Assembly: GCA_963457665.1 (NCBI GenBank)
Contig: OY735231.1
Location: 41,220,524 to 41,284,523 of the forward strand
DNA: 64,000 nucleotides
Direction: 5' to 3'
From: Thysanoteuthis rhombus
Taxonomy: Eukaryota > Mollusca > Cephalopoda > Oegopsida > Thysanoteuthidae
The notes under the pieces were generated by a model. It was given only the letters and a program-made list of their open reading frames with translations. It was not told the origin of the DNA and did no database searches. Shown piece after piece: positions 3,111-55,369 of this stretch. Within the stretch, counting starts at the first letter, position 1. Each line of letters starts with the position of its first letter. A program made the translations under genes and the position numbers.

Positions 3111-3164
3111 TTTTTTCGTTTTGTTCCGAACACTCTCCGCCCTGTTTCTGTCTTTTACCTCTGT

Positions 3165-3862: not shown

Positions 3863-4381
3863 CCAAACATTTTTTTTGGGGGGGGGGTATCCAAAACTAC
3901 TCACTTTTCTGTTTCTATCTTCCTCCTCAGTTGTACATTCTCTTTTTTTAATTTCCAGATTTAATTATTTTTTTGTCTTTCAGATCTCACAATGTAGTTT
4001 CTCCCTCTTTCATCTGCTAACCCAGTGGTTCTTGACCTTTTTTGCTCTCTGAACCATTCCGACATCTCAAAAGATTACTCACTATAAAAAGTAATCTAAT
4101 AATATATCATATGGCAGAAAACATACATCATATATTCCTGAATACTAAAGAATTTTCCTTTCGTTAACACTACTCGTCTCGAGTGGATACATACCCGTGA
4201 GAAAAACTTCTTTATAAAAGAAAAAAAATACTCAAATATGAGCATTAATGTACTTCTAAAGTCTTTGTAATTTCTTTATCGTTTGTTGCATGGGAAAATC
4301 CGAGATGGTACTTAGCATTGACAGTGTGGAAATGAAACGATCGAGAAAAAATGTTTCTTACATCTCAAATCATTTTTATTA

Positions 4382-12164: not shown

Positions 12165-12445
12165 ATGTGTCACCAAGTGAATTACACTATTTCTGCAGAC
12201 GACACAGAGTAAAATTGAATCAATCTAAAAAACTGGACAAATACTCTGATCTTGTGAGAGAATTGTTCAACAGGAAAGTGACACTCTTGCCCATCAACAG
12301 TTGCTTTCAGCTGAGCAAAAAGGCTAGAAACCAGGAAACCCGAGGAAGGATCGAAGACCATTGAGACGATAGCTTAACTGAAAGCTGCTGGAAGACTGTG
12401 GAGAGTGCTTGAGTATTGAGGAGACTTGTCATCATATGATATCCA
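12165..12445 (+). pseudogene. Possible C-terminal remnant of an RLE-type LINE
   Basis: A 65-codon frame contains K-K-L-D-K-Y-S-D-L-V-R-E-L, similar to the K-R-E-K-Y-Q-D-L-A-R-E-L segment that follows the endonuclease of the R4-type LINE at 52540-55297. About 150 bp further on, another frame gives G-R-L-W-R-V-L-E-Y, like G-T-A-R-I-L-G-K-V-L-E-I at that element's C-terminus. The order and spacing fit, but no endonuclease aspartates are visible and the match is by eye. Confidence 0.3.
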
Positions 12446-28162: not shown

Positions 28163-28575
28163 ACAGGTCTGGTTAGTCACTCAATAAAAGCCGTCACGTA
28201 AGCAAGGTTTTTTGGCAACATGTCATACTGGGGTGATCAATTAAAGAATTGGAAATACGGGTGATCAATGAACAAGTTACTTCACTCGTTTTCCGTTCGG
28301 TAATGATCATTACGTTGAAAAAAAGGATGACCCAAAATGGTGATCAATTAAGCATTAACGTACAATGCAAATCAACCCCATATTAAGAAAACCTATTTAG
28401 GGGTTGGATATTCAAAACGCAAAAAACGTTTTTTTCTAGACATGATAAGGTGTGAATGCTGAAATTCTAAACCATCACCGCAGCCTATACACATGATACA
28501 GAAATACAGCAGGCCAACTTAAGAAACTTCTCTTGACAGATTTGGTGACAGTTTTGTCTGACTGTTTCTAATAAT
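28163..28575 (+). repeat. Dispersed repeat family A
   Basis: Runs from ACAGGTCTGGTTAGTCACTC to TGACTGTTTCTAATAATAAT; all landmarks are in order and the copy is about 410 bp long. Confidence 0.75.
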
Positions 28576-51500: not shown

Positions 51501-52045
51501 AAATTTTTAAATCACCAAGTCCGTCGACAAAACTGTATGGCCGGGGGCGTTGAAACACACAAACACAGGCACATGTATAAAGAAAGAAAAAAGATAGAAA
51601 TTTAGCTTTGGTGGCCACGGTTGTCAAATACAAAACAGTGGAATAAAGCGTCTGAATTCCATACGTGACAGCAATTCACATTAAGATTCATTGTACATAA
51701 AGGCATTGTACAGATATTCATTGAAGTCCAATTTACACCAGCGTGTACTGTTTGTTTACAAAAAAAAAAACGATTACACCATGAGAGGAAAAAAAGGTAT
51801 ACATAGGAGGAATTGAATACGGTTTATTGTTAAAAAAAAAAACATTTAAAAAATGTTCGAAAAAACATTGCTGAAAACTTTGAATCACCTAAACTAACGC
51901 ATACAAAAGTATATAATGAATCGGGAGAATATTTGGTGATGGAAATCAATAACCATACAATTTCCTCTCATCTCAGCAGGTAATGTATGGAATGGACTTA
52001 GAGGTAACAAGCAACCGGAGTGGCGTCAACCTAAACTGCATTTTC
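51501..52045. other. Non-coding stretch
   Basis: The first 120 bases (CAAGTCCGTCGACAAAACTG, CGTTGAAACACACAAACACA) are related to the segment at 35445-35510 of the duplication array. The rest is AT-rich with A-runs. Confidence 0.4.
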
Positions 52046-52150
52046 GTTTATGGGACCTAGTATTCCTAAGTGGTCACCCATCTTGGTACTAATCAGGCTT
52101 AACGTTGCTTAACCTCAGTGTTTGTACGAGAACCGATGTATTCAACGTGA
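52046..52150 (-). pseudogene. 5S-rRNA-derived relic, longest copy
   Basis: Minus strand: CACGTTGAATACATCGGTTC, TCGTACAAACACTGAGGTTA, AGCAACGTTAAGCCTGATTA, GTACCAAGATGGGTGACCAC, TTAGGAATACTAGGT. About 105 of the ~120 bases of 5S rRNA are covered in order. CCGATCACCGAA has become CAAACACTGAGG, so it is unlikely to fold or function. Confidence 0.75.
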
Positions 52151-52484
52151 TATGACTATAAAGCCGGCGTTGCAGAAATGGTTTAAGAGGATTCAGCAAT
52201 TTGGAAATGCAAAATTCTATAAAGAATCAATAGTCTGCAAATTTATAGATTACAGATAAAAATCGAATCGAGTTGAAAGTAAACTTTATCTTAAATAATC
52301 TTCATCATAAATGTTGGAAATAGTTATGGCTTATAAAACTAAGCATTTAATAAGTATTATCTTGAAACTTAAATATTTACTTTTACTTTTGAAATGTGTT
52401 TCTCTTGTAGCGTTCGCAAATGAAAAGAAATCAAATCTTGAATTGAATTTTCTACAAAAGCACCTATAATGGAATAAATGTGTT

Positions 52485-52487
<3 letters not shown>
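52151..52487. other. Non-coding spacer
   Basis: Nothing recognised. Confidence 0.4.

Positions 52488-52536
<49 letters not shown>
52488..52536. repeat. (TTA)n tract at the 3' side of the LINE
   Basis: About 16 triplets of TTA, equal to (TAA)n on the element's strand. With the tract at 55298-55369 it flanks the LINE on both sides. Confidence 0.95.
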
Positions 52537-52542
52537 CATTTG

Positions 52543-52722
52543 CAATCTCACACCAGTTGCCTGGTGGTAACCGCTGGAATTTGAGTGACAGCAAGTCTCC
52601 TCAAGTCTCCAGCCCTCCTCTCCTAGTACTCATAGGTCGCAGTAATACTGCAATTTACAGTTTCACGCCGGTTGCTCAGTGGTTATCGCTGGAGGCTGAG
52701 TGACAATAAGTCTCCTCAGGTC
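52543..52722 (-). repeat. Duplicated segment in the LINE 3' UTR
   Basis: Two related ~70-bp copies (52543-52607 and 52651-52722, about 115 bp apart). Each reads, on the element strand, GAGGAGACTT...TGTCACTCA...CCAGCG...TAACCAC...CAACtGGtGTGA or a close variant. The outer one abuts the (TAA)n tract. On the plus strand the inner copy has GGTTGCTCAGTGGTTATCGC, which resembles an RNA polymerase III A box, but no B box was found. Confidence 0.75.
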
Positions 52723-52780
52723 TTCAGCTAACGTCTCTCTCTTTCACCTATCATGTCAGGGCTACAATTCGTTGCAGTCC

Positions 52781-55297
52781 TTATATCTCTAGCACCTTCC
52801 CCAGTATCCGTGCAGTTCCCAGGAGTGCTGTGGTCTGTGCGGTCTCATTCCTTCCCCTAATCCTGATCTCCTCCAGTCCCACCCTTAGCGTTTTGGGGAC
52901 GTACTTCCTTAATTCTCTTGCTAGGTCCTGGTATTTTTCCCGTTTTTCACTCTCCTTCTTTTTCACTCTATGGTCTGCAGGTACCGCCACATCTACCATT
53001 TGGCACGCCTTCCTTTTTTTGTCTACTATTACGAAGTCCGGTCTTCTTGCCTGGATGAGGTGGTCAGTTTGGATGTCAAAGTCCAAGAGTAGTTTGTGGT
53101 TGTCATTCTCCAGGACTGCCTCTGGTTTGTGCTGATATCACTTTTCCACCTGGTTAAATCCCATTTGTTTACTTAGTTCCCAGTGTATCATCGTTGCTAC
53201 TCTATCGTGTCTATGCTTATACCCCTTCTTGGCGAGTTGACTACATTCACTAGTTATGTGGTTTACTGTCTCATCTCTTTCACCGCACATGCGGCATTTG
53301 CTGTCTGTCTGTGTTCTGTCGATTTTGCTTTTATGTAGTTTGTCCTTATGCTTTTGTTTTGGGCTGCCATGATGAGCGATTCTGTTTCTCTCTTAAGGTT
53401 CCCCTTTCGTAACCACGTCCATGATTTCTCGTCTGCTATATCTTGTATCTGTCTTTTAAACTCGCCGTACAATTTTTTCCCTTCCCATCTTTCTTTTCTT
53501 GTTTGCTGTACTGTTCCATTGTTTTCTACTTTATTGCTTGTTGCACTATCTCTCGCACTCTTTATGATTTCTTCACTATTTGTTTGCACATATCTTTCTA
53601 GGACTATTTTAGCTCTCTGGACACAATCCTCTATGCTGATGAGCCCCCTGCCACCTTCTTTTCTCTTAACGTATAGTCTATCTGTATCATCTCTAGGGTG
53701 TAATGCTTTATGCATCGTCATAAGTTTCCTTGTTCGCCTATCCATTGATTGGAGCTCTTCCTTTGTCCATCCTAGGAATGGTCCTGTATACCTAACTACT
53801 GACACAGCCCAGGTGTTCATTCCTTTTATTAGATTTCTGCTGTTTAATTTGGTTTCTAATATTTTCCTTATCCTTCTGAGGTATTTTCTCTTTATTTTTT
53901 CCTTCATCTCATCCCGTTTTATCGTGTCACATTCAAGGATACCTAGGTACTTGTATCGGTCTTGTGCGGTCAATGCCCTAATCTTGCTGTTGTCTGGGAG
54001 TTCAATTCCCTCAGTCATTGAAAGCCTTCCTTTGTGCATCACCATGATTGCGCATTTTTCTATTCCAAACTCCATTCCTATGTCCTCACTATATTCCCTC
54101 ACTTCGTTGAACAGAGTCTCAAGCTCTCCCCTGTTTTTTGCGAACAATTTTATATCATCCATGTACATTAGGTGGTTGACCTTTCCTTTTGTTTTAGAGA
54201 AATGGTATCCTTTGCTGTTTTCCAGGATTCTGTTGAGCGGTATCATTGTTAGAACAAATAATAGTGGGGACAACGAGTCTCCTTGGAAGATTCCCCTTTT
54301 TATCCCTACCTCGGCTAGTTTGTCCCCTGCGGCTGTCAAATCTACTTTCCAGTCTTCCATCGAATTACCAATGAATTTAACCACCGGTTCGCTAATTTTG
54401 AACATTCTAAGGCATTCGAGTATCCAGCTATGTGGAATCATATCGTACGCTTTTTTGTAATCTATCCATCCCATTGCGATATTCTTTCTCCTTTTCCTCA
54501 CTTCTCTTAAGATCATCTGGTCTATGTAGAGTAAATCATTTGGCCCTTTGGTTCCTATCCTACACCCTTTCTGTTCTTCTGGTAGTAGTCCCCTTCTATC
54601 CATTGACATGTATATTCTCTCAGCTATTTGCCCGGTCAGGATTTTCCACATAAGTGGTAAGCACGTGATTGGTCTATAGTTGCTTGCTATGATCCCCTTT
54701 TCTGGGTCTTTTTGGATGAGGGTGGTTCTGCCTTTAGTCATCCATTCTGGTGCCTTGCCTTCGTTTAGACAATTTTGGAGTAGGTGAGTGAGTCTGCCGT
54801 GTAACGTGGTGAATTTTTTGAACCAATACCCATGGATCCCGTCGGGACCCGGTGCTTTCCAGTTGGCTACTTTCCAAAGAGTATGTTTCAATGTGGTTTC
54901 TTTCAGTACTGTTGGTTCTCCCTTGTCTATATCTTCTAGTTCTTTTCTCATGTTTCCTAACCATTGCGGTGTTACGTTGTGTCTTTTTGGGTGCCCCCAT
55001 ATGCTATTCCAATAGTTCTTGGCCTCTGTGGCATCTGGTTTCATGTCCTGCCTTCTTACCCCATTTAAATCTTGGTAAAACTTTTTCTCATTGTTTTCGA
55101 ATGTGCGGTTTTGTGTGTATTGGGCTGTTCTTAGTCTGTATCTTTTCAGTCTTGCCTCTTTAGCTAATCTCTTCTGGTGTAACTCTTCGACTACTGTTGG
55201 GATACCTTTTTGCGTTACCTTGTATTTGTTATAAAGTCTTACTCGTGGTCTGTCTGTGTGTGGTGTATTTCTTAGCAGCACTTCATCTCTCTGTATA
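52781..55297 (-). pseudogene. RT/endonuclease ORF of the R4/Dong-like LINE
   Basis: The main open frame covers the RT (codons 52-728 of a frame whose first 51 codons come from flanking DNA and an asparagine run made by the TAA repeat). Landmarks: K-A-P-G-P-D-G-I-H-G (about 198-207), N-Y-R-P-I-T-C-L (257-264), D-Y-K-K-A-Y-D (motif A, 330-336), G-I-F-Q-G-D-S-L-S-P (motif B, 386-395), Y-M-D-D (429-432), and a thumb with R-K-L-M-T-M-H-K-A-L-H-P-R. A 1-base loss in an A-run near 53325 shifts the frame. The next frame gives C-R-M-C-G-E-R-D-E-T-V-N-H-I-T-S-E-C, a CX2CX8HX4C knuckle. A TGA near 53140, probably from TGG, interrupts it. Then R-P-D-F-V-I-V-D...D (PD-x14-D) with K-R-E-K-Y-Q-D-L marks the endonuclease. 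The protein ends K-V-L-E-I. Confidence 0.85.
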
Positions 55298-55310
55298 TTA
55301 CTATTATTAC

Positions 55311-55368
<58 letters not shown>

Positions 55369-55369
55369 T
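55298..55369. repeat. (ATT)n tract at the 5' side of the LINE
   Basis: About 24 triplets with two ATTACT interruptions next to the element, equal to (AAT)n on the element's strand. Confidence 0.95.

Follow-up and report, generated by a model that had tools for sequence, protein, structure and literature searches.

The minus-strand LINE at about positions 52541 to 55293 of the window, by which we mean the whole 64-kb stretch of DNA analysed here, is with a probability of roughly 85% a dead, 5'-truncated element of the R4/Dong type with a restriction-like endonuclease (RLE) that has been inserted into a (TAA)n microsatellite. Its family inserts mostly into TAA tracts, as is supported by the flanks of other copies in the same genome, and copies adjoin head to tail across shared TAA tracts. 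TAA targeting is already known for the clade and the clustering is what this genome adds. In a narrow literature search, no title or abstract opening was found that reports self-nesting or TAA-specific strings.

Anatomy and state of the window copy

The first-pass annotation had placed the element between two TAA tracts, and both the coordinates and the flanks were borne out by TRF (Table 1). Pure TAA-type runs of more than 12 bp occur in the window only in these two tracts, and the next-longest run is a single one of 12 bp at position 28569. The tract that borders the element upstream is interpreted as the portion of the target lying before the insertion. It cannot be an element-encoded end because the window copy is 5'-truncated, and the same applies to other 5'-truncated copies. 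The description of the element as an RLE-type LINE with YMDD, CCHC and PD-x14-D motifs was likewise upheld, by the Pfam match of the reverse transcriptase and by the motifs read in the translations.

Table 1. Features of the LINE and its flanks (window coordinates)
Feature	Position	Strand	Evidence
(TAA)n tract on the element's 5' side	55296..55368	-	73 bp; TRF period 3, 24.3 copies
5'-truncated ORF with reverse transcriptase, YMDD	53263..55293	-	Open frame; Pfam RVT_1, E 2.1e-27
Continuation after frameshift: linker and CCHC zinc knuckle, C-x2-C-x8-H-x4-C	53138..53392	-	Translation; zf-RVT
Restriction-like endonuclease segment, PD-x14-D	52781..53137	-	Translation compared with copy L014
3' UTR with two tandem hairpin units (52653-52737, then 52538-52622)	52541..52780	-	75% identical direct repeat, spacing 115
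(TAA)n tract directly 3' of the element	52487..52540	-	TRF period 3

The zf-RVT match of the knuckle lies below the curated Pfam cut-off (24.9 vs 27.5 bits, E 3.3e-05). The endonuclease segment had no family match in Pfam or the PDB, a phmmer search with it gave PDB hits only at chance level and a structure model built without an alignment was poor (mean pLDDT 37.3). The closest solved proteins by sequence are those of the R2 retrotransposon (E 7.7e-23), followed by human LINE-1 (E 1.9e-17). In the 3' UTR, the two hairpins folded together gave a z-score of -2.58, with 4 of 200 shuffles being as good, and folded singly they gave -2.24 and -0.97. The hairpin pair recurs in other copies of the family with matched changes in the stems, and it may be a recognition site for the reverse transcriptase. 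The 3' UTR was also considered as possibly tRNA-like, which was rejected since ARAGORN found no tRNA in the window.

The window copy is a dead, 5'-truncated LINE. Its frame carries a frameshift at about 53263-53392, and an in-frame TGA at 53138-53140 ends the segment that follows. The endonuclease segment is about 50 bp shorter than in the relatives, the deletion lying after the PD-x14-D motif. Moreover, when aligned with the longer copy L026, in which the frame is open from position 3158, the window copy starts only at position 4212, so that the 5' UTR is missing along with as many as about 350 codons of the N-terminus. The near-complete reading frame ascribed to the element in the annotation does not withstand these defects. 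Nor does the claim that it is the youngest element in the window fit the comparison within its own family: over about 1,450 bases, the divergence of the window copy from the majority sequence of 21 copies is 2.0%, which is the second highest value (range 0.5-2.5%), a rank that holds among near relatives only since the 21 copies were picked for their likeness to the window copy.

Two further observations were made in the window. On the plus strand at 12193-12428, the decayed 3' end of a related LINE has left weak traces in colinear order (blastn, 71% over 72 bases, E 0.012; tblastn, 62% over 21 aa, E 0.002). A 5S rRNA match of full length (52045-52163, minus strand, 73.7 bits) is separated by about 320 bp from the TAA tract at the 3' end of the LINE, and it could represent a gene, a pseudogene or a 5S-derived SINE.

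TAA tracts at the borders of the copies

The flank tabulation proposed in the annotation was carried out in the assembly holding the window (2.73 Gb, 514 contigs). A query with the reverse transcriptase gave 6,628 first-look candidates, 40 of which were scored and 20 of these taken, the window copy included. A query with the 3' UTR gave 4,213 candidates. After the scoring of 40, 30 loci were extracted, and the window copy was again among them. The sample thus comprises 49 distinct copies, 20 from the first query and 29 from the second. With a tract defined as a TAA run of 9 bp or more in the sense orientation of the element, within windows of 52 bases, TAA follows the 3' end in 44 of the 49 copies, precedes the 5' end in 31 of the 47 copies with a visible 5' end and is present on both sides in 28 of these 47. 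Without correcting the ends of the internally deleted copies L015 and L023, the counts are 43, 30 and 27, respectively. As a background, a TAA run was nearby at 11 of 8,701 positions sampled in the window outside the element (46-base windows). The tracts are also polar: TAA on the complementary strand was found in the 5' flank of a single copy of the 47 (L027), which has a sense tract as well.

The 5' ends of the copies fall at many different truncation points and truncated copies still have a 5' tract, which indicates that this tract belongs to the target. The targeting of TAA that had been suggested from the window copy is thus supported. The 5' TAA tract of at least 9 bp is absent in 16 of the 47 copies, and the specificity is therefore strong and not strict. 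Six of these 16 copies start directly at the 3' part of another copy, as judged by eye (L024, L032, L036, L039, L043, L048). Furthermore, 3' tracts are commoner than 5' tracts, so part of the tail may derive from the element RNA. Other trinucleotide tracts (AAC, CAT, GTT) border some copies (L018, L022, L038 and L057), and in L038 an (AAC)n tract precedes (AAT)n after the 3' end. The target may tolerate other A-rich triplets.

The 5' junctions were analysed in 29 copies with a nearby 5' tract, L014, L015, L023, L026, L038 and L049 having been excluded beforehand. In 20 of the 29 copies the join is clean and in the remaining 9 there are intervening bases. At least one base is shared with the TAA tract in 18 of the 20 clean joins, while 56% would be expected for random truncation points (p 0.0013). 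The mean number of shared bases is 2.6 vs 0.9, a value that is raised by two long cases (L047 and L051).

The insertion process would be target-primed reverse transcription. The TTA strand of a TAA tract would be nicked by a protein that has a Myb-like domain at its N-terminus and an endonuclease at its C-terminus, and the nicked strand would then serve as primer for the reverse transcription of the element RNA, starting at the (UAA)n end. Synthesis would often stop early, leaving 5'-truncated copies, and the 5' end would be closed onto the remaining TAA with the aid of one or a few matching bases.

Head-to-tail strings and a possible supply of landing sites

Counted by hand, 23 of the 49 copies abut another copy, at 27 junctions that are all on the same strand. 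The 3' end of another copy lies just upstream in 14 copies and another truncated copy lies just downstream in 13. For instance, L033 is a string of four copies with different 5' ends and TAA between them. The window copy has no abutting neighbour. In total, 33 additional 3' UTRs were found in 24 of the 49 loci and 32 of them are on the same strand. Apparent neighbours of L015 and L023 were rejected as separate copies because they are internal deletions of one copy, and the downstream neighbour of L028 was rejected since it is a 5'-UTR-like array and is left out of the 13.

Two tests that depend less on the choice of copies were made with exact 3' ends and with long TAA tracts. Exact matches to the 3' end with (AAT)3 directly after it number 6,013 in the assembly (2,959 on one strand and 3,054 on the other). 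Taking the first 100 such ends listed for contig C1, 11 pairs of consecutive ends are no more than 3 kb apart, while 0.73 would be expected. All 11 of these pairs are on the same strand, as compared with 37 of 85 pairs more than 20 kb apart, and of the 14 pairs within 20 kb among the same 100 ends two are on opposite strands. The motif (AAT)12 gave 381,051 overlapping matches, which corresponds to very roughly 69,000 TAA tracts of at least 36 bp, if 18 tracts per 100 listed matches are typical. A tract sample from one end of one contig, consisting of 14 stretches of 351-431 bases that cover 15 of the 18 tracts, contained element sequence in 7 of the 14 stretches, in the expected polarity in all 7, as compared with 1 of 162 tiles of the window used as a control. 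Because the match in L065 is weak (E 1.3e-4 over 37 bases), a strict count gives 6 of 14. L064 was rejected as a stretch bordering a copy because its match is to locus flanks only. On contig C1, between 0.86 and 2.88 Mb, 17 of the first 18 listed long TAA tracts are on the plus strand, with few in the first 1.6 Mb, which could be an effect of the listing or real clustering by strand.

Insertions leave TAA at the 3' end and usually also at the 5' border, and older copies would thereby supply sites for younger ones, giving rise to head-to-tail strings of differently truncated copies. Accordingly, the family may grow its own target with its copy number, as insertions leave TAA borders on which later copies land in the same orientation, a reading that we consider to have about an even chance of being correct. 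If it is true, the microsatellite is less a pre-existing safe harbour than a habitat that is built and kept by the element, and a large share of the long TAA tracts of the genome (half of the sampled stretches) now borders it. Microsatellites had been proposed in the annotation as safe landing sites; many of the sampled copies have come to lie next to members of their own family. Stacking in their own target arrays is a feature of the telomere-specific TRAS and SART elements, which are also site-specific LINEs and differ from the present family in the type of endonuclease and in the target.

The strings could also be products of single events, in which the reverse transcriptase switches from the RNA being copied to the (UAA)n end of another one, or in which a copy is later duplicated in tandem. 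Either event would also produce copies arranged head to tail with TAA in between. In L054 two copies are joined without intervening TAA, and in some cases (L010, L021, L025, L042, L054) the neighbours resemble the reference to about the same degree. However, in 16 of the 23 clustered copies the similarity of a neighbour to the L026 reference falls at least 5 percentage points below that of the primary copy (assessed by hand), and 21 of the 33 neighbouring 3' UTRs are at most 84.5% identical to the reference, compared with 94-98% for the primaries. Moreover, the neighbours differ in their 5' truncation points, as is seen in the L033 string. The insertion of younger copies at the TAA borders of older ones fits the lower similarity of the neighbours better, and an origin of the strings in single events is unlikely.

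It is less probable still that TAA is not a target at all and that the (UAA)n end of the RNA makes the tail, the tracts having grown by slippage after insertion into AT-rich DNA. The excess of 3' over 5' tracts would agree with this, as would the long 3' tracts of several copies that have no 5' TAA (L037, L049, L052, L058). However, a 3' tail does not account for 5' tracts of fixed polarity at arbitrary truncation points, and the strict same-strand clustering calls for a polar target.

The genome offers a large natural experiment in one assembly, with about 6,000 exact young 3' ends and very roughly 69,000 long TAA tracts, in which strand polarity, junction microhomology and clustering can all be measured. 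It permits a direct test of whether microsatellite-targeting LINEs avoid doing harm through insertion into neutral repeats or through insertion into their own copies. It can also be asked whether LINEs that target microsatellites are creators of the microsatellites that they use.

Relatives and placement of the family

The family contains longer copies, L026 and L014, and in the latter the order of reverse transcriptase, CCHC knuckle and endonuclease is the same as in the window copy. The 5' UTR of L026 contains a tandem repeat of 96 bp at 564-2771 (23 copies, 98% matches), of which L014 has one unit. In the N-terminal frame of L026, a Myb-like stretch and no CCHH or CxxC zinc finger were seen by eye. 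A Pfam search gave no match in this N-terminus, and its structure model, built without an alignment, was poor (mean pLDDT 38.7). Outside this genome, no relatives were found in phages or plasmids, and none of the 18 and 72 pattern matches in viral_contigs and genome_contigs, respectively, was confirmed.

Judged by its architecture and its target, the element most likely belongs to the TAA-specific Dong group, in line with the R4/Dong affinity proposed at first pass. In excerpts of PMC7998251, R4/Dong elements are described as having a Myb-like N-terminus and no zinc fingers, and TAA targeting is on record for Dong-like elements of ostracods, insects, molluscs and cnidarians. The family has in common with Dong of Bombyx mori and with Dong-like elements that it is an RLE-type LINE with a (TAA)n target and, as judged by eye in L026, probably a Myb-like N-terminus without zinc fingers (PMC7998251). 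Dong is also reported to adjoin TAA repeats (PMC3774820, in part). Unlike Dong and Dong-like elements, the present family shows strong head-to-tail clustering and, in one copy, a 5' UTR built of the 96-bp repeat. An HDV-like ribozyme has been reported at the 5' end of R4 and Dong (PMC3774820, in part), whereas no match up to E 1 was obtained in L011, L014, L023, L026 and L028, the true 5' ends of which may be missing. Like this family, the Dong-R4 LINEs of Octopus and other coleoid cephalopods are described as abundant and recently active (excerpts of PMC13282606 and PMC8967140).

R2, to which the nearest solved structures belong, shares with the family the order of reverse transcriptase, CCHC knuckle and RLE as well as the knuckle spacing, which is given as CX2-3CX7-8HX4C (PMC5678591, in part). 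It differs in its 28S rRNA target and its N-terminal zinc fingers; here the flanks are TAA. Membership in a different RLE clade (NeSL, Hero or R2-like) with convergence on TAA is very improbable: the R2 structures would speak for it, and the R4/Dong placement is drawn from architecture and target, but the Myb-like stretch read by eye in L026, where no CCHH or CxxC was seen, follows the R4/Dong pattern and the TAA target is that reported for Dong-like elements (PMC7998251, in part).

Tandem units of about 570 and 710 bp, which resemble the 5' UTR of the element and contain TAA tracts, lie downstream of L028 (7059-8003) and L026 (7050-8002). It is possible that 5' UTR arrays of the L028/L026 type also serve as landing sites.
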